Shown piece by piece: positions 1 through 20,642 of a stretch of DNA of 32,249 nucleotides. Made by a program: the position numbers and the translations under genes. The stretch is from Synergistaceae bacterium (GTDB taxonomy: Bacteria; Synergistota; Synergistia; Synergistales; Aminobacteriaceae). Every line of letters starts with the position of its first letter. Position 1 is the stretch's first letter. The notes below the pieces were generated by a model. That model made no database searches. It saw nothing but the letters and a program-made list of their open reading frames with translations, and had not been told where the DNA came from. The stretch is from positions 1 to 32,249 of the forward strand of contig JAFSKY010000047.1 in the NCBI GenBank assembly GCA_017448685.1, written 5' to 3'.

Positions 1-20
1 AATCTATCACGGGCTGTCAT
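1..20 (-). CDS. Start of a leftward gene, cut by the window edge
   Basis: On the minus strand an ATG at 20-18 opens a frame reading Met-Thr-Ala-Arg-Asp-Arg before the window ends. A near-perfect ribosome binding site, AAAGGAGG on the minus strand, lies at 35-28 with seven bases of spacing. A perfect TATAAT hexamer (minus strand, 47-42) sits just upstream, though no clear -35 box accompanies it and the implied leader would be very short. The gene points the same way as the 431-7412 operon, with the repeat region between them. Six codons do not allow a function to be proposed. Confidence 0.55.
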
Positions 21-80: not shown

Positions 81-362
81 TTTACGACACTTTAACGACA
101 CTTTTACGACGGATTTTTTTTAAAGCGTCGCAAGATAAATAGTGTCAATGTCTTGTATTATACGTTTAACGACACTTACGACACTTATTTTTGCTCTGAA
201 ATGATTTTTGAAAATTCTCGGCGAGAAAATATATTTTGAGATTTTTATGCGTATAAAAGCGTCGTACTGTCGTTGATGGGGATAAAGGATTGTCGTTACT
301 GGGTTAGATGCAACGACACATGAAAAAAAAAGCGTCGTTAATCCGTCGTTAATCCGTCGTTG
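81..362. repeat. Bipartite iteron-like array with ACGAC core
   Basis: About a dozen copies of a short motif near TTAACGACAC occur here. Forward copies have cores starting near 84, 95, 106, 169 and 178; the first three are spaced exactly 11 bp. Reverse copies (GTCGTT form) lie near 261, 269, 291, 333, 344 and 355; the last three are again spaced 11 bp. One further reverse core is at 125-130 and one forward core at 312-317. The centre (about 187-258) is AT-rich and holds a perfect TTCTCG-G-CGAGAA palindrome at 215-227. The layout resembles an iteron origin with an unwinding element, next to the primase-helicase operon. Operator or integrase arm sites are alternatives. The repeats are seen directly; the role is inferred. 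Confidence 0.7.
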
Positions 363-430: not shown

Positions 431-742
431 CTAAACGTATTCGGGGTGGTCTTCAAGCCAATGTATCAATTTGAATATCTTATCATAACGCTTAGGCAAT
501 GGAGCAACGGTAACATACTTCACGGCATTAGTCAGAGCGTAGGGGAAGCCGAATTGCTTTAACTCCCAAATGAGAGTCTCCCAATAGCAGCACTCTTCAC
601 GGTCATTATACTCTTCATATTCCTCATAGTGCCACCAGAATTTTGGACGGTCATCGGGATTGCCGATGTTGTATTCACATGCCCATGCGTAAAGCAACGT
701 GCATTCAAATACCTCAATGGGCGACAATTTGTATTTGCTCAT
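431..742 (-). CDS. Hypothetical acidic, aromatic-rich protein
   Basis: A 103-residue protein that I do not recognise. It is rich in Trp, Tyr and Glu, with a centre of the type WWHYEEYEEYNDREECCYW, and has no signal peptide or membrane segment. The start is ATG at 742, which shares one base with the TAA stop of the primase-helicase gene (TAATG). GGGAGG lies at a good distance inside the end of that gene, so an upstream in-frame ATG at 757 is less likely. It is the last gene of the leftward replication operon and is probably translationally coupled to the helicase gene, which suggests an accessory role in replication. That role is inferred from position only. Confidence 0.75.
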   Translation of the reverse strand: MSKYKLSPIEVFECTLLYAWACEYNIGNPDDRPKFWWHYEEYEEYNDREECCYWETLIWELKQFGFPYALTNAVKYVTVAPLPKRYDKIFKLIHWLEDHPEYV

Positions 743-3372
743 TACAACGCCTCCCAATCAATCTCATCAGCAGACGGTCTAGCGTTAGGGTTATTCGTCT
801 GAGGCTTTTGCGACATGGCCGGAGCAGGTGTTACAGTGGCATCAGGAAAAACGATAACGGTATGAGCATTATTGCCACGCTTGAACGTAACACCCGGCAT
901 CTTCTGCCTCAATAGCATTTTGAGCTGCCTCCCAAAGTTGAACACGTTCACGGGCATGCAGTTTACTTCCTTGCACCATGGAACGTAGTACTCCGTGAAA
1001 AGCTCGGAGGTAGAAATCTCCATTGAGTTCCAGCCGGATAACTTCATGTCGATAAATCCCGCCAGAGGGTTCGCGATCGTCATAAACTCACTGAGAGTAG
1101 CTTCATGTTCAGGGAAGGTAACGAATTGCCGCGACTCTCTGAGTTCCCTGTAGTATCTCAGCAACCAGTTGAATATGCCGGGAATTTCCTTGCAGAGTTT
1201 CTCCGTCAACATGGTATCAGCATTAGCGCCCGTGAAAATCTTGTTGAACGGAATGAAGATGAAACGCCTCATGAAGCCGAATGTAATATCCTTGCTGTTG
1301 ATGAAGTTATTGATAGCGCAGAAGAATTTAGCACGCGGTCTAAACTCTACAGCATCAACGCCCTTATGAGCCGCCCTGATATATTCGCCGGAGATGATTT
1401 TCTTGATGGCCGCTTCGGAGCTGTGAATGTCAACGCGGGACTCTGTGGCGAAATTGACGAGTGCATGACGTAGTGCGAGGGGGTCAAACTCATGCGACAT
1501 TCTGGACGGTTCAACGCTGGAACAATACTTTTGCCCGAACACAGCCCGCAATGTATTCAGGAACACAGATTTACCGTTACTGCCGTCGCCGATGAGGAAA
1601 AATCCCTTTTCGAGTGAGCAATCTGGGAATAAGATATATCCAGCAGCTTGACCGAGCAAACGTATCTTCAGAGGGTCATTCTCCATGATAGCGGCAATGA
1701 AACGCTCCCATGTTGGGCATGTCGCCATGGGGTCAAAGAGGAATGAGAGCTGTATGCTTGACATGTAGGAAGGGGAATGCGGTTTAAGCTCCAGCGTGTC
1801 AAGGTCAAGGATGCCATTCGGGAAATTCATTATCCGCTTGGTGTTAAATTCCTCGTCGCAAAACTTAACCGCCCTCAGATGACCCGCCGCCGATTTCATG
1901 CGAGCAAAGGTAGCGAGTTCGCCAAGACACTGCTTAGCGTAATACTGTATGACAGGTTCAGCCCGTTCAACCCACAGCCCGCGTACATACTCGTAAAAGG
2001 CATCATTCTTCATGTACAGGAGAGTATGTTCCTTTGCGATTTCGTCGACGATGACATTTTCCGCCGGAGGCTTCCTCGCCTCTTCAACACACGCCTTAAC
2101 GAACGCCGCATCAAGATGACCTGACTCCTGAATGAGAGCCTGCCGTGAAGCATCATCTTTAAGCATGGCCAGCTTGACGGGGTCAGGAGCAGAAGCCCTT
2201 TGAGCGATGATAGCGAGTTCGGGACGATCAGCAAACCGTCCCGCCCCCATGATGAATTTCTTGAACGCCTGCTCCGAGCCTGCTGGGAATGCCCTCGCCA
2301 AATCTGTAATGCCGTCTGTAGCGTTCGCGACAATCTCTGAGAGGTCTCCGCCCGCCGCGTAGAAGTCTGACACGTCTTTAATCTTTTGGCCGTTGAACAT
2401 GGCCGGGAGATGTCCACATACGAAAGGAATTTTGTGGGAGAAGAGGAATTTGGCCATGTCCATTTGGAACTGCTGTCCGGGTGCATCGGAGTCAAAGCAG
2501 ATAAATACCTTTTCGAATTTGCGGGCAATGTCTGCAATCATGGGTAGAGATTTTTTGCTGAAGTAGCCGCCAATTGAGGAGAGGACATGCCAGCGTTCTT
2601 GAAGGAAGCTCATAATGTCAAACATACCTTCCCCGATTATGAGGTACTTGTTGCGGTCAAGGCCGTTATCGGTGATGGACTCAGATTGAGGGAAGGGGGC
2701 GAGGGAGTCCATCCCCCACGGAATATTTTGCGAGAATAAGCTCCCCCCTGTGTATTTCTTCTTGTATTTGCCGCATGACTTATCCGATTTCCACCGCCCC
2801 GACATATCACGCCCCGCATAGTAGACGGCCTGCCCATTCTGGAAATACGGCACAATGAGACGGTAGAACATGGCCGAGCGTTGTTCAGCGCAAAAGCCTA
2901 GTTTGAGCTTTAAGATTGTCTCATCGGTGATGCGCCTGCTGTACAGGTAATCGAGAATACGTTGCTTATGCCCGGCAGTGTCCATGATTTCGGGATTGTC
3001 GATGAGCGTCTCATGCCAGCGTTCAACGGTAGCATTGAGGGACTCAGTGTACTGTTGCCAAGAGTGTGAGTCATAGCCCGAATAGAAATCAGCGCCTAAA
3101 TCCCTAAAAGCCTCCGACTTGTTGCCATTGTGGCGAGTGAGAGCGCACAGATCGATAACGTCTCCCCCTTTGCCGCCTTCCTCCCAATCAATCCAGTGAT
3201 CGTCAAACACCCAGAAGGCATCATCCCTGTTAGCGCGAGAGGGGTGGAGGGGGGATAAGCACCTATCCCCTGACCTGTAAATCGGCAAGCCCAAAACGTT
3301 GCGGCAATAATCAACGCACGTCCATTTAGCTTTGATGAGCTGGACGATTTCGGAGAAATTAACTTTGCTCAT
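742..3372 (-). CDS. D5-like phage primase-helicase (Toprim plus SF3 helicase)
   Basis: An 876-residue replication protein. The N-terminus looks like a degenerate CHC2 primase zinc region: Cys38 and His43 are present and the WEEGGKGGDVIDL segment is conserved, but the later CxxC is missing. A Toprim domain follows, with GEG at 247-249 and DSD at 294-296. The C-terminal half is a D5/P4-type superfamily 3 helicase with Walker A GDGSNGKS at 595-602. Proteins of this kind make primers and unwind DNA at phage or plasmid origins. The start used is ATG 3372, inside the last codons of the upstream gene (14-base overlap), with only a weak ribosome site. An in-frame ATG at 3390 is possible. Identification of the family is firm; the primase activity is less certain because of the altered zinc region. 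Confidence 0.93.
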   Translation of the reverse strand: MSKVNFSEIVQLIKAKWTCVDYCRNVLGLPIYRSGDRCLSPLHPSRANRDDAFWVFDDHWIDWEEGGKGGDVIDLCALTRHNGNKSEAFRDLGADFYSGYDSHSWQQYTESLNATVERWHETLIDNPEIMDTAGHKQRILDYLYSRRITDETILKLKLGFCAEQRSAMFYRLIVPYFQNGQAVYYAGRDMSGRWKSDKSCGKYKKKYTGGSLFSQNIPWGMDSLAPFPQSESITDNGLDRNKYLIIGEGMFDIMSFLQERWHVLSSIGGYFSKKSLPMIADIARKFEKVFICFDSDAPGQQFQMDMAKFLFSHKIPFVCGHLPAMFNGQKIKDVSDFYAAGGDLSEIVANATDGITDLARAFPAGSEQAFKKFIMGAGRFADRPELAIIAQRASAPDPVKLAMLKDDASRQALIQESGHLDAAFVKACVEEARKPPAENVIVDEIAKEHTLLYMKNDAFYEYVRGLWVERAEPVIQYYAKQCLGELATFARMKSAAGHLRAVKFCDEEFNTKRIMNFPNGILDLDTLELKPHSPSYMSSIQLSFLFDPMATCPTWERFIAAIMENDPLKIRLLGQAAGYILFPDCSLEKGFFLIGDGSNGKSVFLNTLRAVFGQKYCSSVEPSRMSHEFDPLALRHALVNFATESRVDIHSSEAAIKKIISGEYIRAAHKGVDAVEFRPRAKFFCAINNFINSKDITFGFMRRFIFIPFNKIFTGANADTMLTEKLCKEIPGIFNWLLRYYRELRESRQFVTFPEHEATLSEFMTIANPLAGFIDMKLSGWNSMEISTSELFTEYYVPWCKEVNCMPVNVFNFGRQLKMLLRQKMPGVTFKRGNNAHTVIVFPDATVTPAPAMSQKPQTNNPNARPSADEIDWEAL

Positions 3373-3685
3373 GGCCGTGTACCTGCGCATAATGCCAGCA
3401 CGCGAAGTATATATACCTTGCCAGCGGTATCACATTAGCTTTAGCGCGTTCCTTGAGTGCTTTCAGAGTTGCGGGGGGAATGCACAGATTGAGCGGAAAA
3501 AATCTTTTTCCCTGCTGAACGCTCTGCCTGCACTGCACTGGGATGTTTATATTGCGCATGGAGATATGGAGAATTTCCTTGCATGCTTCTATAGCTATAT
3601 CCTCCATAGGCAAGCAGTGAGCTTCTGCGATGTTCTGAATGATGTAGTCAGTTTTGCCATCAAGGAAGATTTTTATTGCGGGCAT
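3359..3685 (-). CDS. Ribbon-helix-helix-like protein, copy 2 of a tandem pair
   Basis: A 108-residue protein. Residues about 2-38 follow the ribbon-helix-helix pattern: a short strand (IKIFLDG), then two helices ending MEDIAIEACKEIL. A second, similar strand-helix-helix stretch occupies the C-terminal third and ends YFACWHYAQVHGHE. It is clearly a paralog of the gene just upstream (3688-4017). The ATG at 3685 follows AAAGGAGG, which is encoded in the last codons of that gene, so the two are coupled. Its own end contains the start codon of the primase-helicase. DNA binding, perhaps as an autoregulator or origin binder for this module, is inferred from fold resemblance alone. Confidence 0.72.
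   Translation of the reverse strand: MPAIKIFLDGKTDYIIQNIAEAHCLPMEDIAIEACKEILHISMRNINIPVQCRQSVQQGKRFFPLNLCIPPATLKALKERAKANVIPLARYIYFACWHYAQVHGHEQS
3370..3410. repeat. 41-bp near-identical direct repeat (copy a)
   Basis: This segment matches 3705-3745 at 40 of 41 positions. Both encode the C-terminal YFACWHYAQVHGHE stretch of the two ribbon-helix-helix-like paralogs. Copy a also contains the start region of the primase-helicase gene. The high identity, against much more divergent flanks, suggests recent duplication or gene conversion. Confidence 0.85.
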
Positions 3686-3687
3686 GA

Positions 3688-4017
3688 TTACACCTCCTTT
3701 ACTTCATGGCCGTGTACCTGCGCATAATGCCAGCAAGCGAAGTATGCGAATCTCCCGAGCATCATAGCGGTATCACTTGTAGCCTCTCTGAGAGCGTCAT
3801 AGAGTGGATGCCCTATATAGATTGAGAGCGGGTAAATTCTGTTGGCGAAGCGAGTTCCCTTCCTGCATGCCTCCGGAATGGTTATGTTGTACAGGTCAAC
3901 CGTGAGAATCTCTTCGAGAGCCTCGATAGCTATATCCTCCATAGGAACGCCCCTGTCCTGTGCGATTTCCTGAATGATGGTATAGGTATTGCCATCGAGG
4001 AAGATGTTTATGTTCAT
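3688..4017 (-). CDS. Ribbon-helix-helix-like protein, copy 1 of a tandem pair
   Basis: A 109-residue paralog of the 3359-3685 gene. The N-terminus (INIFLDGNTYTIIQEIA, then GVPMEDIAIEALEEIL) has the strand-helix-helix layout of MetJ/Arc-type DNA-binding proteins. A second such unit appears near residues 65-100 and ends YFACWHYAQVHGHE. MEDIAIEA and the C-terminal stretch are conserved between the copies even at DNA level. The start is ATG 4017, with GGGAGGAGG upstream; the upstream nuclease gene stops at 4020, two bases away. Two such domains in one chain would allow a monomer to form an intramolecular pair, which is inference. Confidence 0.72.
   Translation of the reverse strand: MNINIFLDGNTYTIIQEIAQDRGVPMEDIAIEALEEILTVDLYNITIPEACRKGTRFANRIYPLSIYIGHPLYDALREATSDTAMMLGRFAYFACWHYAQVHGHEVKEV
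3705..3745. repeat. 41-bp near-identical direct repeat (copy b)
   Basis: Partner of 3370-3410, with one mismatch in 41 bases. It encodes the conserved C-terminus of the first ribbon-helix-helix-like paralog. Confidence 0.85.
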
Positions 4018-4019
4018 GA

Positions 4020-4658
4020 TTACGCCTCCTCCCATGAGTCAATAGTGCCGTCAGGGTTGACGTGGTGTTTCGGGAACATGTCGAAAGTGAGATTGACCCA
4101 CACCCAGCGGCGAATGTGTTTATCCCATTGAGGAGCGCGCCTTACGTAATCAATATCCGGGCATTTTTCGAGTATGTCCATAAAGTGCCACGCCACCCCG
4201 TCAGATGGTCTCAAAGCCTTAACGCCCCTCCTCGCGGCCTCAATGACAGCATCAGCCTCAAAGCGAACAAGCGGGTATTGTGTCGGTGAAGGTGAAATAG
4301 CCTTAAACCAGACGGCAAAATAGCACTGTGCAGTCTTGCCTAACAGCTTTGACACTCTGAGCATGTTGCTAGCCTGACGGTGAATAGCATAGCCCTTATC
4401 CCCGTCAAGGATGCCAGTGATGGGCCATGCGTCAGACTGAGTCACCTTAGCGTCGAAGCAGTGAATCTCATCCGGCACAATGATGATGTAGTCGAACGGC
4501 TCGCCTCTGATGACCTTCAGAGCCTGACCGACTCCGACCTTTTCGGGCTGTAACTTATGAGCGAATCCCCCGGCCATGTTGACTATGTCGCACATAGCGT
4601 TGATTTCGACCTCGAAATCTTTGCCCTTGCCAGCGTGTGAATTAGGGTAAACCTTCAT
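4020..4658 (-). CDS. RecU-like Holliday junction resolvase (PD-(D/E)XK fold)
   Basis: A 212-residue protein resembling RecU and phage homologs. The N-terminal AGKGKDFEVEIN (residues 9-20) matches the family's 'NRG..FE..IN' opening. Asp56 in GEPFDYIII and the D69-x-K71 pair in CFDAKVTQ fit the catalytic PD-(D/E)XK core, followed by HRQASNM where RecU has its glutamine-bearing helix. Resolvases of this type cut recombination junctions before packaging. The start is ATG 4658 behind AAAGGAGG; a longer in-frame extension to 4865 would overlap the upstream gene and lacks a ribosome site. The core lysine motif is DxK rather than the usual ExK. Another PD-(D/E)XK nuclease with the same fold cannot be excluded. 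Confidence 0.72.
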   Translation of the reverse strand: MKVYPNSHAGKGKDFEVEINAMCDIVNMAGGFAHKLQPEKVGVGQALKVIRGEPFDYIIIVPDEIHCFDAKVTQSDAWPITGILDGDKGYAIHRQASNMLRVSKLLGKTAQCYFAVWFKAISPSPTQYPLVRFEADAVIEAARRGVKALRPSDGVAWHFMDILEKCPDIDYVRRAPQWDKHIRRWVWVNLTFDMFPKHHVNPDGTIDSWEEA

Positions 4659-4671
4659 GATTGAGCCTCCT

Positions 4672-5175
4672 TTATTGTGCCTCATCCATGAGGGAAAAAA
4701 TCTCTTGGAAGAATTTATGTTCATCGAGAGCGGCCTCCGCGAGAATGTCATTGATGAACCACGGAGTGCCATCATCCTTAGTGAGTCTGCCAAAGACGGG
4801 GGCATATATCTCATCAACCGCGAGCCTGAAAGCGTCATAGGTGAAGGCGTAATAGCCTTTGACATGGCCGAATTGAACGACGCAGATATTCATCACGTCT
4901 AAGGAGCTGAGTACGGTTGGAGGATTTCTGAGAGCGTTCATGATTGTGTAGGGGATGAGGTGAAGCCCGCGGATCTGGTAAGCGATATTCCACTCTTCGC
5001 CATCGAGCTGCACGGGGATGATGAAATGCACTTTTGACTCTGTCATGACGCAGTACTGAGTGAGTCCGTTGATGGAGCGCGTGAAGCATGGAACGCCCCA
5101 CTGTTCAAGTGTCTTCATGAGGATGTGCATATCCTCATTGATGTTGCTGCTTGCGACGGTGATATTGTTTCCCAT
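4672..5175 (-). CDS. Tandem paralog family A, member 1 (unknown function)
   Basis: A 167-residue protein of no recognised family. It shares a layout with the three genes upstream (5178, 5624, 6066): an N-terminal N-I-x-x-D helix with ILMKTLEQWG, a HFIIPV strand, a CVVQF strand followed by YYAF, and a C-terminal G-x-x-W...NDIL. It is closest to the 5178 gene: both have GLTQYC or GLTEYC, then MT(E/D)SK, then QLDGEEW or KLDGEEW. It has about 20 extra residues at the C-terminus (LDEHKFFQEIFSLMDEAQ). The start is ATG 5175 with AGAGGAGG upstream, near the stop of the preceding gene at 5178. No membrane segment or signal peptide is seen. Confidence 0.75.
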   Translation of the reverse strand: MGNNITVASSNINEDMHILMKTLEQWGVPCFTRSINGLTQYCVMTESKVHFIIPVQLDGEEWNIAYQIRGLHLIPYTIMNALRNPPTVLSSLDVMNICVVQFGHVKGYYAFTYDAFRLAVDEIYAPVFGRLTKDDGTPWFINDILAEAALDEHKFFQEIFSLMDEAQ

Positions 5176-5177
5176 GA

Positions 5178-5612
5178 TTACATAACCTCCTCTAATATGT
5201 CGCCTGGGTACCACGGAGCGCCCTCATTAGCCGAGAGGACTCCATAAGCGTGTGAATTGTCATCGAGAGCGTTAGCGAAATCCTGAATGTTGAATGCCTT
5301 GTAGGGATATATGTTTTCGAACTGAACGACGCAGACGGCTTCATATTCGTCAGCGTTAAGGCTGTCGGGAATGTCGCTGAGGGTCTCAATGATGGTATGA
5401 GCCTTGAGAGAGAGTCCGCTGATGGTGGATGCGATTCTCCATTCCTCGCCATCGAGCTTAACGGGGAGGATGAAGTGTATCTTTGAGTCGGTCATGAAGC
5501 AGTACTCAGTGAGTCCCTGAGCGGAGCGAGCGAAAGCCATAGCGCCCTTTTTATCGAGCGTCTTTGAGAGGATGTGCAAATCTTCGTGAATGTTGCGAGT
5601 TGCGATTGTCAT
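5178..5612 (-). CDS. Tandem paralog family A, member 2 (unknown function)
   Basis: A 144-residue protein, the closest relative of the 4672 gene. Shared blocks are NIHEDLHILSKTL, GLTEYCFMTDSKIHFILPV, LDGEEWRIA and AVCVVQFEN, followed by YKAFNIQDF and APWYPGDIL. A mixed alpha/beta fold is likely. The start is ATG 5612, behind the leader AGAAAGGTAAGGTTACTC on the minus strand. This leader recurs in front of the next paralog. The family seems confined to this operon in the window. A replication-linked or host-interaction role would be a guess. Confidence 0.75.
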   Translation of the reverse strand: MTIATRNIHEDLHILSKTLDKKGAMAFARSAQGLTEYCFMTDSKIHFILPVKLDGEEWRIASTISGLSLKAHTIIETLSDIPDSLNADEYEAVCVVQFENIYPYKAFNIQDFANALDDNSHAYGVLSANEGAPWYPGDILEEVM

Positions 5613-5623
5613 AACGAGTAACC

Positions 5624-6055
5624 TTACCTTTCTGAGAGTGCCTCAAAGTGAGGGCATTGGTTGATGATTTCCATGTAGTTCCAGTCCGAGCCGTCAAAGG
5701 GGGTAACGACATGTCCGCGCGCCATAAGCTCGTCCCAATCGAACGCTCTATAGACATGTTCCGGCTGTGTGAAGTGAACGACGAGGAGAGAGTGAGATTT
5801 TTTCTTGTGGTAAGTATCGTGGATGATGTTTTTGTCGTCATTTGAGACGTTGTAGACGGGGTCAGAGGATTGCACTGGGAGTATGTAGTGAGTCATGGCC
5901 GGAGTCTTGAACATGAAGACGTGAGAGCAAATGCGCCAGACGAGTTGAGCTTCCCCGCCAGACTGATTGACAGCGTTCTTGACAGTGAGGATGTCGCGGA
6001 AAATGTTATTGCCGACGAGGTTGATTTTTGGAAGGTTGATGATATTGACGGTCAT
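5624..6055 (-). CDS. Tandem paralog family A, member 3 (unknown function)
   Basis: A 143-residue member of the same tandem family, closest to the 6066 gene. Shared blocks are NNIFRDILTVKNAVNQSG, AQLVWRI, THYILPV, LLVVHF and YRAFDW, then a C-terminal SDWNYMEIIN. The start is ATG 6055, just after the conserved leader AGAAAGGTAGGTTACTCGTT. An upstream in-frame TTG at 6262 would bury the start in the previous gene and is rejected. Its last three residues, Ser-Glu-Arg, are encoded by the ribosome binding sequence of the next gene, as also seen at the end of the 6066 gene. Confidence 0.75.
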   Translation of the reverse strand: MTVNIINLPKINLVGNNIFRDILTVKNAVNQSGGEAQLVWRICSHVFMFKTPAMTHYILPVQSSDPVYNVSNDDKNIIHDTYHKKKSHSLLVVHFTQPEHVYRAFDWDELMARGHVVTPFDGSDWNYMEIINQCPHFEALSER

Positions 6056-6065
6056 AACGAGTAAC

Positions 6066-6473
6066 CTACCTTTCTGAATTGCTGTTGCTGAAGAGAGTCT
6101 TGTAATCCCATTCCACGCCTTCAAGGTAAGAGACGGTTTCGCGGGTTCTTCTGACGTTGCGCCAAAAGAATGCCTTATAGGGCATGTGAGTGTTCTTGAA
6201 GTGGACGAGGATATAAGCGTTGAATTTGTTGCGTCTGTAATGGAACTCGCGAAGCACCTCAATGTACTGATGGGGAATGAGGTACGAGAAGTTGTATGTT
6301 ATTGCAGGGAGGATGATATGAGTCTGCTGTGAAGTCTGGAACGAGTAAGCGTTAGTGTGAAGGATCCAGACGAGTTCAGCGCGTTTTCCCTGCTGATTGA
6401 GGGCTTCTTTGACTGTGAGTAAGTCGCGTATGAGGTTATTGTTTGTGAGTTTGATGTTGATGGAGTTATTCAC
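6066..6473 (-). CDS. Tandem paralog family A, member 4 (unknown function)
   Basis: A 135-residue protein starting with GTG at 6473, behind AAAGGCAGG. It aligns with the 5624 gene throughout: NNLIRDLLTVKEALNQQG, AELVWIL, THIILPA, AYILVHF, YKAFFW, WDYKTLF and a C-terminal SER. It is the first of the four tandem paralogs to be transcribed after the DUF669-like gene. The common core (helix, HxILPV strand, VxF strand, YxAF, W near the end) is kept while the rest has diverged, so the duplications are old and selection probably acts on the fold. The function is unknown. Confidence 0.75.
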   Translation of the reverse strand: MNNSINIKLTNNNLIRDLLTVKEALNQQGKRAELVWILHTNAYSFQTSQQTHIILPAITYNFSYLIPHQYIEVLREFHYRRNKFNAYILVHFKNTHMPYKAFFWRNVRRTRETVSYLEGVEWDYKTLFSNSNSER

Positions 6474-14731: not shown

Positions 14732-14923
14732 ATGACGCAGAGCAACACCCCCAGCAATATCGCTAAACTACGCGAACTCCTCACGGAACACAGCAAAGCC
14801 CTCTACAGATTCGCGGAAGAAGAACGCTCTGAAGGACGCTCACGCAATGCCGTCAACCTGAGAGCTATGGCCATGCAACAGGAACAAGCCTTGATTGAAT
14901 ATCTCGGTGAGGACACAGAATAA
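14732..14923 (+). CDS. Small helical hypothetical protein
   Basis: A 63-residue protein, almost entirely helical and charged (KLRELLTEHSKALYRFAEEE, then NLRAMAMQQEQALIEYL). ATG 14732 follows AAAGGAGG. Its TAA stop overlaps the next ATG (TAATG). It lies between two members of the APEM family and is probably translated with them. No family is recognised. Confidence 0.7.
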   Translation: MTQSNTPSNIAKLRELLTEHSKALYRFAEEERSEGRSRNAVNLRAMAMQQEQALIEYLGEDTE

Positions 14924-15231
14924 TGTCCGCATTCACGCAGGGAACATGGCAATATAACGGCTATGACATATTAGCTACAGGCGAGAATAGCACAAACACT
15001 CACTATATCGCTTGCATGTATTGGAACGGCTCACATGCTGAAATGGACGCAAACGCCCGGCTCATCGCATCAGCCCCCGAAATGTTCGAGGTTCTCATTG
15101 TCGCTCAAGAGGAAATTCAACAGGCATTACAGCAAGGTGCAAACACGCCGGGACTGTATAAAGCATTACGCAGAATCACAGCCGTAATAGAAGGCATTAA
15201 TCCGAGTAAGAACGCTTTACTTTGGCAATAA
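14923..15231 (+). CDS. W/ANARLI/APEM family protein
   Basis: A 102-residue member of the repeated family: AFTQGTWQYNGYDILA, then MDANARLIASAPEMFEVL at about 45-62, followed by a helical tail with a conserved-looking LYKALRRITAVIEGI. It has the clearest form of the signature in this window. The start is coupled to the preceding gene (TAATG). Four relatives lie at 6984, 11518, 13936 and 14457. Confidence 0.78.
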   Translation: MSAFTQGTWQYNGYDILATGENSTNTHYIACMYWNGSHAEMDANARLIASAPEMFEVLIVAQEEIQQALQQGANTPGLYKALRRITAVIEGINPSKNALLWQ

Positions 15232-15253
15232 CAGAAAAGGAGGAATATCCCTA

Positions 15254-15550
15254 ATGGACACACAAGTCGAAATCACCCGCGATTCCAATGATTTCTGGTT
15301 TGCCTGCGTCGATATTGACGTTCTCCGCAACAAAGATTTATCCCCGATGGCAAAATACATCTTCGCGGTAGCCTGCACATTTGCCAGCGTAATGGTGGGA
15401 AGATATTGGCCGAGCATTGATACAGTTGCGAATACGGCTAATGTCTCACCGAGAGAAGTCATGCTCGCATACAAGGAGCTTGCCGACAAAGGAATCCTCA
15501 CACAGCTTCAGGATAGGTGCGAATATTGCGAGGAGGAAATCGAATCATGA
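15254..15550 (+). CDS. Winged-helix protein, short copy
   Basis: A 98-residue protein: DFWFACVDIDVLRNKDLSP, a first helix MAKYIFAVACTF, then WPSIDTVANTANVSPREVML with YKELADKGIL, a replication-initiator-type winged helix. It is a paralog of the N-terminal third of the next gene (EYWFAPVDITVLTDKTLSP). It lacks the long C-terminal part and ends in CEYCEEEIES. ATG 15254 follows AAGGAGG, and its TGA overlaps the next ATG. It may modulate its larger partner. Confidence 0.75.
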   Translation: MDTQVEITRDSNDFWFACVDIDVLRNKDLSPMAKYIFAVACTFASVMVGRYWPSIDTVANTANVSPREVMLAYKELADKGILTQLQDRCEYCEEEIES

Positions 15551-16449
15551 CCCCTCAGAATGAATACTGGTTTGCCCCCGTTGACATTACAGTGCTTACG
15601 GATAAAACGTTATCCCCAATCGACAAGGCCGTATACGGGGTATTATGCGTACACGCCGACAAGAAGACCCGCGAATGCTGGCCGAAAGTCTCAACCATTG
15701 CCGAAGAAGCTGGATGCTCACCTCGCGCCGTCCATAACTCATTGAAAGTCCTTGAGGAACGCGGCATCATTCAGCACACTCAGAGATTCGCACAACACAG
15801 GCAAATTTCCTCACGCTATCAGCTAATCGGGTACAAGGCTGAATGCTATAGAGATATACCCTGCACCACATGCAAGGGGAGTGTGCATGACGTGCAGACC
15901 GAGAACGAGAGTCACTTGAACGAGAATCATAAAGACTCCCTTACGGGGGGAAGCGATTCCCCAGTATACGCCGAATTACCGAATGAGCCTCAGAATGACA
16001 CCCAGGGCGATATACCCTCACAGCCTGAACAGGAAAAGACTCCAATTAAGCCGGAAGATATATACACCCCCAAAGATGCACCAGAAGCTATGAGATCCAC
16101 AGCGGAATACTTCACACTCAAGACCGGGCGCAAGACTCTCACCGAGGCAGAGATATTCGCATTACGGGAAATGAACGCAACCCAATACCCTACACGCGTC
16201 CAGAAAGAAATTGACCGGGCATGTGAACTCTTCACACGCAGAGGGCAATTCCTCGACACGTTGACGCTCGAATACATAGCCGCCTCACTACGCAATCAGC
16301 CGACAAGAGGCCACAACGCTAAATCCAAGCAGGCCAAGCGCAAGCATGACCCCAACGCCCTCACACAAGCCGAAATTGACGCGGGGCAGATAACATATAC
16401 CCGTGAAGACCTTGAACGCGCTAAAGCGTTGATGCGTGAGAGGGGGTAA
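15547..16449 (+). CDS. Winged-helix replication-initiation-type protein
   Basis: A 300-residue protein. Residues 1-90 are a winged helix (LSPIDKAVYGVL, WPKVSTIAEEAGCSPRAVHN, LKVLEERGII) of the kind found in phage replication initiators. A long polar, low-complexity linker follows (about 120-180), then a C-terminal domain (AEYFTLKTGRKTLTEAEI to YIAASLRNQPT) and a basic tail. The order initiator, DnaC-like loader, DnaB (15547, 16456, 17405) is a common phage replication cassette, so origin recognition and helicase recruitment are likely. Its own gene could contain the origin, though no clear iterons were noticed in it. Confidence 0.75.
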   Translation: MTPQNEYWFAPVDITVLTDKTLSPIDKAVYGVLCVHADKKTRECWPKVSTIAEEAGCSPRAVHNSLKVLEERGIIQHTQRFAQHRQISSRYQLIGYKAECYRDIPCTTCKGSVHDVQTENESHLNENHKDSLTGGSDSPVYAELPNEPQNDTQGDIPSQPEQEKTPIKPEDIYTPKDAPEAMRSTAEYFTLKTGRKTLTEAEIFALREMNATQYPTRVQKEIDRACELFTRRGQFLDTLTLEYIAASLRNQPTRGHNAKSKQAKRKHDPNALTQAEIDAGQITYTREDLERAKALMRERG

Positions 16450-16455
16450 TCAGCA

Positions 16456-17418
16456 ATGGCAACGAGACTCGCCGAGAAACTACCAGCCTTCACCGCCTCG
16501 CCTGATTGGAAATCACAGCTTGAAGCCCTCCGTGCCAAAGAAGACGCTGAAGCCCTCGATTACCTTCACGCAAAATTTCCCGGCATTGAAGACTCCGTGT
16601 TCTTCACTGACTACACCGGGTATACACATGCCCACGTGATAGACGCTCGCGAAATCTGCCAAGCCGCAATCAGGGAACATGCCTGCGCATCATGCAAAGG
16701 ACACTGCACACTCACTGACAGAGAATCCGCCCCCGTTCCCTGCGTTGAAAAAAGCTCAAACGGCTTCATGTATCTCTATGTCCGCTGGGCTTGCAATGTT
16801 GATTGCAGGTTTGACCCCTTAAGCGGGCAATTCGGCAGATTGTTCACTCATAGCGGGCTAATACAGAGGCATTTGCGCCAGACGTTCGAGAATTACGCGG
16901 CATTGAATGATGAGCTGACCAATGCGCAGACACAAGCGATATTTGCGGCCATGAATGGAACGGGACTCGTTCTTGCAGGCAAGCGCGGAACTGGCAAAAC
17001 TCACCTCGCTGTAGCAATCGCGCTTTACGCCATGAGGCATGGCAAGCAGGCATTATTCCGCCTCGTCAATGATTTGCTCAATGAGATTCGCAAAGCAGTA
17101 GCAGACCATAGCGATTATTTCAGCGTGATACAGAAATTCAAGGAAGTTCCCTGCCTAGTGCTTGACGATTTCGGCAAAGAGAAAACTACAGACGCTGGCC
17201 TCGATTACCTTTACAGTATAGTTGATTACCGTTACCAGCACGAACTGCAAACGATAATCACGACCAATGCCCCCGACATAGAGACATTAGCGAGCTGGGG
17301 AAAGTCTGAGTACACGACTCCAATCGTCTCGCGTGTAATGGAGTCAGGAGCATGGGTAACGCTGGCCAAATCAGACGATTACCGCGTGAAAGGAGCGAAG
17401 CATAATGCGCACAGATAA
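16456..17418 (+). CDS. DnaC-like helicase loader ATPase
   Basis: A 320-residue AAA+ protein. A cysteine-rich region at about 77-117 (CASCKGHC, later CNVDC) suggests a zinc-binding N-terminus. Walker A is GKRGTGKT at 175-182 and Walker B is CLVLDDFGKE near 233-242. The C-terminal TNAPDIETL and ESGAWVTL fit the sensor region of DnaC/IstB ATPases. Such proteins load DnaB onto DNA. ATG 16456 follows GAGGGGG. The next gene, dnaB, begins inside its last 14 bases, so the partners are coupled. Confidence 0.88.
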   Translation: MATRLAEKLPAFTASPDWKSQLEALRAKEDAEALDYLHAKFPGIEDSVFFTDYTGYTHAHVIDAREICQAAIREHACASCKGHCTLTDRESAPVPCVEKSSNGFMYLYVRWACNVDCRFDPLSGQFGRLFTHSGLIQRHLRQTFENYAALNDELTNAQTQAIFAAMNGTGLVLAGKRGTGKTHLAVAIALYAMRHGKQALFRLVNDLLNEIRKAVADHSDYFSVIQKFKEVPCLVLDDFGKEKTTDAGLDYLYSIVDYRYQHELQTIITTNAPDIETLASWGKSEYTTPIVSRVMESGAWVTLAKSDDYRVKGAKHNAHR

Positions 17419-17590
17419 CATGACCCCTCCCCACAACCCTGAAGCAGAACAGTCCGTGTTAGGAGCGTGCTTGATTTCGTCTGAGGCACTTGACACAGTA
17501 ACAGAGCTTCTCAGGCCGGGAGATTTACACCGCCATAACGGAGCTTCACCACAACGGCAAACCTTCAGACCTCGTAACCGTAAGCGATGA
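17405..17590 (+). CDS. dnaB: DnaB N-terminal fragment, ends by frameshift
   Basis: The first 40 residues are a normal DnaB opening: PPHNPEAEQSVLGACLISSE, then LDTVTELLRPGD. At about 17516-17527 the frame is lost. DnaB continues in another frame as EIYTAITELHHNGKP and PSDLVTVSDELKSRG, while this frame reads Arg-rich nonsense to a stop at 17590. Compared with DnaB, which has FY...HR between the GD and the (E/H)I(Y/F) positions, seven residues are missing, equal to a net loss of 26 bases. ATG 17405 has AAAGGAG upstream. The fragment alone cannot act as a helicase. Confidence 0.8.
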   Translation: MRTDNMTPPHNPEAEQSVLGACLISSEALDTVTELLRPGDLHRHNGASPQRQTFRPRNRKR

Positions 17591-17627
17591 GCTGAAATCA
17601 CGCGGAAGCCTTGAACGCATTGGCGGA

Positions 17628-18731
17628 ATGTCCTACCTTGCACAGCTCATGTCATCCCCTCTGACGACAGCCAACACGCTTTATCATGCGCAAATAGTGC
17701 TGAATCAGTCATTGAGGCGGAGAATGATAGAGGCTAGCGACAAAATAGCCGGATTCGCATTAAAGCCTGAACTCGATACATCCGCGATAATCGGCGAATC
17801 AGAACGCGCATTACTAGAAGCCTCACGCGGTAATGAAGCCTCACAGCCCCTCCCTGTTCATGACCTGACCCCTATCACGATGAAGGCAATTGAGGATTTA
17901 TACCGTTCCGGCGGTCGCAAACTCACAGGCTACTCAACAGGATTTGCTGATGTGGATAGAATCCTCGCAGGATTACAGCCCGGTAGCCTGAACATAATCG
18001 CCGCTCGTCCCTCAATGGGCAAAACAGCCCTCGCAATGAATATAGCTCAATTCGGCGGGGGGGCAGGCAATAACCCTCATGTTCTAGTGTTCAGCCTCGA
18101 AATGTCATCAAGCCAACTCATTCACCGAATGCTAGTAGCTCAATCAGGCATCAAGCTGTCAGATATATCATCTGGACGACTGAATGACTACGATTATCTG
18201 AGATTGTGCGAGGCATCAGAAACCTTAACCGCCCGCAACATTTTCATTCATGACACACCCCGCCTAAGCGCAACAGACTTCACGACAACATGCAGACGCT
18301 TCAAGACTCATCATCCCGATTTAGCGTTAATCGTAGTGGACTACTTGCAGTTAATGCACGTTGATGGCCGCAAAGGAGATAATCGCCAGCAGGAAACAGC
18401 CGACATATCACGCGCCCTGAAGGGAGTAGCTGTAGAATTGGGATGCCCCGTATTAGCGTTGTCGCAATTATCCCGTGAGGTTGAACGCCGTACAGAACGC
18501 AAGCCACAACTCTCAGACTTGCGCGACTCAGGTGCTATTGAACAGGACGCTGATACAGTCATGTTGCTTTACCGTGAGGACTATTACGACATGGAGAAGC
18601 AAAATGCCAGCGAGAATAGCCGTGCCGAATTGAGAGTCGCCAAGAATCGCACAGGCAGAACTGGAATATGTCATCTCACATTCCGCCGCGAATATACACG
18701 TTTCACAGGTTCAACGGAGGCCGGGCAATGA
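17628..18731 (+). CDS. dnaB: DnaB replicative helicase, C-terminal part
   Basis: A 367-residue frame holding most of DnaB. It includes the linker region, Walker A ARPSMGKT at 126-133, Walker B LIVVDYLQLM and the C-terminal ALSQLSREVERR...LRDSGAIEQDAD block. Coding sequence in this frame is recognisable from about 17520, but the first usable ATG is 17628, with only a weak GGCGGA upstream. The N-terminal collar is thus split by the lesion at 17516-17527. If internal initiation occurs, the product would lack most of the N-terminal domain needed for stable hexamers and loader or primase contact. It overlaps the next gene by an ATGA. Confidence 0.85.
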   Translation: MSYLAQLMSSPLTTANTLYHAQIVLNQSLRRRMIEASDKIAGFALKPELDTSAIIGESERALLEASRGNEASQPLPVHDLTPITMKAIEDLYRSGGRKLTGYSTGFADVDRILAGLQPGSLNIIAARPSMGKTALAMNIAQFGGGAGNNPHVLVFSLEMSSSQLIHRMLVAQSGIKLSDISSGRLNDYDYLRLCEASETLTARNIFIHDTPRLSATDFTTTCRRFKTHHPDLALIVVDYLQLMHVDGRKGDNRQQETADISRALKGVAVELGCPVLALSQLSREVERRTERKPQLSDLRDSGAIEQDADTVMLLYREDYYDMEKQNASENSRAELRVAKNRTGRTGICHLTFRREYTRFTGSTEAGQ

Positions 18732-20126: not shown

Positions 20127-20642
20127 ATGCGGTATTCATACTATGTAACACTGAACAAAGTAGCCGGATTGATAGAGATTCTCATAACATGCCACCCACA
20201 AGGTTTCGGGATATTGCTAGGCATAAATGAGCCGCCTACCTCGCGTGAAGTGCATGAAATATTCGGGACGTTACGCGACAAAATGCCCGATGACTACAAG
20301 CCGTCAATGATGAATCTCACAACGGAAGCTGAACGCATCGTGTATGACCGTGAATATTTCGACAGACTGGTTGACCTTGGCGGAGGCTGGCCACATATAA
20401 ATTTTGTCTCGAAAGAATACCGCGATTCCGATTCCCGAATGTGGTCGGTCGTAATGGATCACGTTAGGTTTGTCGGAAATTCAGTATCACGCCACGCGTC
20501 AAAATTAGGCTACGTTGCGGCGCGCTATGGATTATCCCCGAATACGGTCATGAAATACCGCCGTGAATTTCCCACTAACTTGGCTAAAATGCTGCTAATG
20601 CCTCCGAGTGATAGCGATGATTTTTACCTTTTACCCGGCTAA
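20127..20642 (+). CDS. Hypothetical protein with C-terminal HTH-like helix pair
   Basis: A 171-residue protein. The N-terminal half is mixed (YSYYVTLNKVAGLIEIL...), and the C-terminal segment VAARYGLSPNTVMKYRREF looks like a simple helix-turn-helix. AAGGAG lies about 18 bases upstream of ATG 20127, farther than usual, so the start is not certain. It overlaps nothing, and the next gene begins just after it. No family is recognised. Confidence 0.65.
   Translation: MRYSYYVTLNKVAGLIEILITCHPQGFGILLGINEPPTSREVHEIFGTLRDKMPDDYKPSMMNLTTEAERIVYDREYFDRLVDLGGGWPHINFVSKEYRDSDSRMWSVVMDHVRFVGNSVSRHASKLGYVAARYGLSPNTVMKYRREFPTNLAKMLLMPPSDSDDFYLLPG

Follow-up and report, generated by a model that had tools for sequence, protein, structure and literature searches.

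A probable SaPI/PICI-type replication origin 3′ of a phage primase-helicase gene in Synergistaceae

Introduction

What is the function of a dense array of short repeats that lies beside a primase-helicase operon in a Synergistaceae contig? The window, i.e. the whole stretch of DNA analyzed here, is one complete contig of 32,249 bp from an assembly fragmented into 249 contigs. An initial annotation described the repeats as iteron-like and proposed a phage origin. We compared the array with the corresponding region of related elements and with known replication systems. Our results indicate that the array is very probably the replication origin of a Synergistaceae phage, that it belongs to the SaPI/PICI type, and that it would be bound by the C-terminus of the primase-helicase.

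Results

Organization of the repeat array

The pentanucleotide ACGAC occurs in forward orientation at positions 84, 95, 106, 169, 178 and 313 of the window, and in reverse orientation (GTCGT) at 261, 269, 292, 334, 345 and 356. Within positions 61–380 these 12 copies compare with a mean of 1.16 and a maximum of 6 in 5,000 dinucleotide shuffles. None of the 5,000 shuffles equalled the observed best 5-mer/6-mer count of this segment, and none contained two 11-bp triplets together. The array described initially is thus present and far above chance, and both outer triplets are exact, at 84/95/106 and, when counted as CGTCG, at 333/344/355. Written in the direction of the right-hand copies, the iteron sequence is AAGTGTCGTTAA, and a variant, AATCCGTCGTTAA, also occurs. 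The features of the locus are listed in Table 1.

The array was also said to be symmetric, with forward copies on the left and reverse copies on the right. This holds overall, but a forward copy is found on the right and the degenerate reverse copy AAAGCGTCG on the left. Two opposing iteron sets are present, though imperfectly, and they are separated by a tract of 75% AT, compared with 51.7% for the whole window. The palindrome reported in this tract is real, but it is absent from those AT cores of relatives that were read by eye. The initial annotation had not singled out the inner doublets 169/178 and 261/269, which are inverted about the AT core and flank approximately 78 bp; they form the part of the layout that recurs most often in relatives.

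Table 1. Features of the array and its surroundings (window coordinates)
Feature	Position	Strand	Remarks
Next gene, same direction as the primase operon	1–20	-	ATG at 20; ribosome-binding site AGGAGG; cut by contig end
Whole iteron array, proposed replication origin	81–362	.	Repeats and comparative position
Outer left set, three forward iterons (84/95/106)	84–117	+	11-bp steps; consensus TTAACGACACTT
Degenerate reverse copy	122–130	-	AAAGCGTCG
Second shared element, weak match	136–153	-	AGACATTGACACTATTTA; sub-threshold when taken alone
Inner left doublet, forward iterons (169 and 178)	169–186	+	9 bp apart
AT-rich core, proposed unwinding region	187–258	.	75% AT
Palindrome TTCTCG-G-CGAGAA	215–227	.	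Inside the AT-rich tract
Inner right doublet, reverse iterons (261 and 269)	256–273	-	8 bp apart
Second shared element, moderate match	285–302	+	AAGGATTGTCGTTACTGG (consensus AACCCTTGMTATTACTGA); overlaps the reverse iteron at 292
Lone forward iteron, right side	313–324	+	
Outer right set, three reverse iterons (334/345/356)	329–361	-	11-bp steps
Small ORF between primase and array	431–757	-	Weak relatives in two other contigs
Primase-helicase, proposed initiator	742–3390	-	Toprim_2 primase, D5_N and DUF5906 (SF3-type) helicase, predicted C-terminal winged helix (Pfam, PHROG, structures)

Genetic context

On the contig, genes for the primase-helicase and for SSB-like and resolvase-like proteins point leftward, while the rightward genes comprise a replication set (O-like protein, DnaC-like loader and DnaB-like helicase), an integrase gene, and genes for terminase, portal, head protease and capsid proteins. 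The array is located 3′ of the leftward primase operon and 5′ of the gene starting at position 20. It lies about 380 bp beyond the primase stop, immediately 3′ of the proposed initiator gene with one small ORF in between. PICIs are helper-dependent elements that lack a full set of structural and packaging genes. Since the contig carries genes for a large terminase, portal, head protease and major capsid protein, we read the element as a phage and did not file it as a PICI. We sought a composition break that would indicate a chimeric contig and saw none. The GC skew displayed no clear switch at the array, though with its coarse step this profile is uninformative, and no Rfam families were found in the window.

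Several other features of the contig were recorded. A second replication module (15254–18731) exists alongside the D5 primase-helicase; DnaB/DnaC homologues were found on 0 of 23 related D5 contigs. The dnaB-like gene is frameshifted near 17,525, its N-terminal part lying in one frame and the rest in another, which reflects either decay or an assembly error. At 4672–6473, a run of three or four leftward ORFs resembles diverged copies of one small family, and those that were searched matched nothing. Finally, a 171-aa gene without database match (20127–20642) lies far from the origin in the window, and its homologues directly follow the origin in two related elements, L056 and L064.

The primase-helicase matched the PHROG family DNA primase (4e-68). 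A profile of 16 primases retrieved the PDB entries 7ola/7om0, titled Primase-Helicase in SaPI5 (6e-40), and a fold search with a model of the C-terminal 400 residues (mean pLDDT 84.5) gave the same entries as top matches. At the C-terminus of this model, helices are followed by a two-strand wing, i.e. a winged-helix shape. The protein thus has a D5/SF3-type helicase and is related to SaPI Rep.

Position of the array in related elements

Related primases were collected by protein search from 27 of the 43 genomes of the genus, and others from genome and viral collections and from named phages; among the elements compared are phages, viral contigs from metagenomes and a Streptococcus satellite. 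Named records matched by alignment of the window and the same-genus primases were mostly Synergistaceae, and many were contigs identical to those relatives. For each element, every 300-bp window was scored by its most over-represented 6-mer on both strands. In 31 of the 54 elements, where 4.0 were expected, the top-scoring repeat window of the locus had its start no more than 650 bp 3′ of the primase; as some elements are mutually related, 54 is an upper count of independent cases. Simulated 3′ placement never exceeded 14 in 200,000 runs (p < 5e-6), a value that is descriptive because the scoring window and distance limits were chosen after the pattern had been noticed by eye. The same test on the 5′ side is the fairer guide, and this control returned 5 of 51 elements with 4.2 expected. 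Similarly, repeat scores of at least 7 were reached in 28/54 elements on the 3′ side and in 1/51 on the 5′ side.

Among own-genus relatives with sequence past the primase, the top-ranked array was at this place in 13 of 26; some of the others have contigs that end early or coding sequence at that position. At the DNA level, a search of phage records with the first 4,100 bp of the window gave no match, scans for close relatives with the window primase alone gave none either, and searches for the array in 60 relatives returned just short, weak matches. In one relative (L108), a strong cluster of 12 AACTGT copies approximately 6.7 kb upstream of the primase stop outscored the cluster at the origin position. 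The initial annotation had suggested looking for the same array beside homologous primase-helicase operons. The outcome was positive: dozens of relatives have an array at this position and of this architecture, although their iterons differ in sequence.

Conserved layout and divergent iterons

Where relatives have an array, it commonly follows one plan, in which outer repeats are accompanied by inner copies or doublets that face each other across an AT-rich core of roughly 60–90 bp in most measured cases. Adjacent iterons on the same strand are mostly 7–13 bp apart, with 8, 9 and 11 as the commonest steps. Inner inverted doublets (7–13 bp) around the AT core were seen in many Synergistaceae, Clostridia and viral contigs, in the phages T25, phi31 and phiSP15-1, and in the satellite Javan9. 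The repeats themselves differ and include TGTGTAAG, AATGACAG, CATCTGCACA, TTAGGTGCAC, GGGGCACTT, TGGCGCAAA and TGAAACAGAT, among others. The layout is therefore conserved across related elements and the repeat sequence is not. Separately, the AT cores of L042, L054, L055, L065, L069, L156 and L159 display, by eye, a recurring ATATAGG(A/G)AA-like stretch.

Two closely related elements, L054 and L069, can be aligned across the region. Their spacers match, whereas all iteron copies have changed together from TTAGGTGCAC to GAAAGTGATT. Because the iterons changed in concert while the spacers stayed alike, the alignment points to one protein reading all copies. The primase C-termini of this pair have the predicted recognition helix in common and differ in the wing.

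We infer that the C-terminal winged helix of the primase-helicase binds the iterons. Across the elements, iteron similarity correlated weakly with similarity of the primase C-terminus (Spearman 0.13, Mantel p 0.02), and no covariation was detected beyond that with the helicase domain (partial -0.06). Given this weak correlation and the lack of excess over the helicase domain, covariation does not support iteron recognition by the C-terminus; as the iterons change too fast, this is not a strong test.

A second shared element

After the iterons had been masked, a shared motif, AACCCTTGMTATTACTGA, was found in the origins. The unbiased motif search first converged on poly-T tracts and was rerun with a G+C condition. 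The motif scored 414 when seeded and 406 de novo, compared with 277–312 and 342–373 respectively in shuffles, the null comprising five shuffle sets with fewer starting seeds than the real search. At a threshold of at least 12 bits it was present in 20 of 35 elements compared with 1.1 in shuffles, using a matrix trained on these same sequences. In several elements (3′ of the primase, L041–L069 and L156–L163) it lies between the outer and inner iterons. A published description of the motif was not found in the searchable literature, which is not proof of novelty.

We tentatively propose, with slightly more doubt than confidence, that D5 primase-helicase origins share two components: fast-changing iterons and a slow-changing AACCCTTGMTATTACTGA, located in several elements between outer and inner iterons. 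In phages and satellites of both Firmicutes and Synergistota, the latter would then mark a second conserved binding event, in which either a host factor or a further region of the initiator takes part.

Discussion

The recurrent position and architecture in relatives support the initial proposal of a phage origin in which iterons flank an AT-rich tract that would be unwound. Other functions of the array were weighed against this reading. An operator for a repressor of the gene starting at 20, and possibly of genes past the contig end, would fit the distance of about 65 bp from the array to an ATG with a good ribosome-binding site, and also the promoter-like hexamers in the AT core, which occur near chance level. 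We regard this as improbable, since the following gene varies among relatives (for example, T25 has a VRR-NUC gene there, L056 and L064 a homologue of ORF 20127) while the array stays with the primase, and since 12 sites plus an AT core are more than an ordinary operator. The array may nevertheless act as an operator for the gene at 20 in an added role.

Direct and inverted repeat arrays at helical spacing are typical targets of ribbon-helix-helix proteins, and two such-like proteins are encoded at 3359–3685 and 3688–4035. A partition (centromere-like) site or operator bound by them is, however, very unlikely: family searches at the thresholds used gave no match for either protein, and no partition ATPase was found among the proteins searched. 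Moreover, 23 related contigs were searched for homologues of the two proteins and none was detected, several of these contigs carrying the array; binding of the two proteins to it, as raised by the initial annotation, is therefore unlikely as a general rule. Least probable of all is that the DnaB/DnaC/O-like module (15–18.7 kb) uses the array as its origin and that the D5 primase-helicase is not the initiator. All three components of the module are encoded on the contig (the O-like protein at 15517–16449), but the array accompanies the D5 primase even in elements that yielded no DnaB/DnaC homologue, and the dnaB reading frame of the window is itself split. The presence of this module on the same contig still counts against an origin served by the primase-helicase, which remains our preferred reading.

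The closest known systems are the origins of SaPIs and PICIs. In SaPIs, the origin iterons lie directly downstream of the gene for Rep, which recognizes them with the C-terminal domain (PMC7581432). PICI origins always contain two iteron sets on either side of an AT-rich region, and the PICI pri-ori supports plasmid maintenance in E. coli (PMC6092414). The window shares with SaPI/PICI origins that use Rep or Pri-Rep (SaPIbov1, SaPI5, EcCICFT073; PMC6092414, PMC7581432) the two iteron sets and the AT-rich core 3′ of a D5-type helicase gene, and the SaPI5 protein is the nearest solved structure to its primase-helicase. It differs in that the element is a phage and not a satellite, in its iteron sequence, in the small ORF between gene and array, and in its Synergistaceae host. 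Cch2 of SCCmec is related to SaPI Rep and requires AAGTG iterons (PMC7581432). This D5-type helicase likewise has its site directly downstream of the gene, and the AAGTG core is also present in the window iteron AAGTGTCGTTAA, but Cch2 has three iterons and a separate primase.

The Firmicutes phages T25, phiSP15-1, phiEG37K, Listeria B025 and Lactococcus phi31 also carry short repeats around an AT-rich core after a D5 primase, which in such phages is mostly preceded by an SSB-like gene. Their repeat sequences differ from those of the window, where the module is leftward and no VRR-NUC gene follows as far as visible. Origins near the primase are known from lactococcal and S. thermophilus phages. 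As proposed for the window, P4 has a fused primase-helicase, alpha, that initiates at short iterons present in both orientations. P4 requires both ori and crr, which are separate sites, whereas one iteron site was found in the window and no second comparable cluster ranked highly in this incomplete contig. A comparison of the PICI system with P4 alpha has been made previously (PMC6092414). As in lambda, iterons adjoin an AT-rich region; the lambda-type origin lies inside gene O, whereas the array is intergenic and 3′ of the D5 primase, and no direct repeat families were found in 14,900–17,600, which holds the O-like gene.

If the array is the origin served by the primase-helicase, the protein would bind the iterons via its C-terminal winged helix and might assemble as two hexamers facing each other. 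It would then melt the AT core, load onto the strands and prime synthesis, and replication would leave the array in both directions. The repeats may also allow the primase-helicase to limit expression of the gene starting at 20.

The array is a real, well-supported and largely ordinary feature, an origin of a known kind. Most worthy of specialist attention are how widely the pattern extends among phages and the second element AACCCTTGMTATTACTGA. Both are new here: the motif, and the finding that phages commonly have an organization that was at one time described as unique to PICIs. For phages of a phylum that has received little study, the locus offers a specific origin that can be tested. Furthermore, the related elements supply many natural pairs of initiator and iteron, L054 and L069 above all, and these are well suited to studying changes in initiator specificity.
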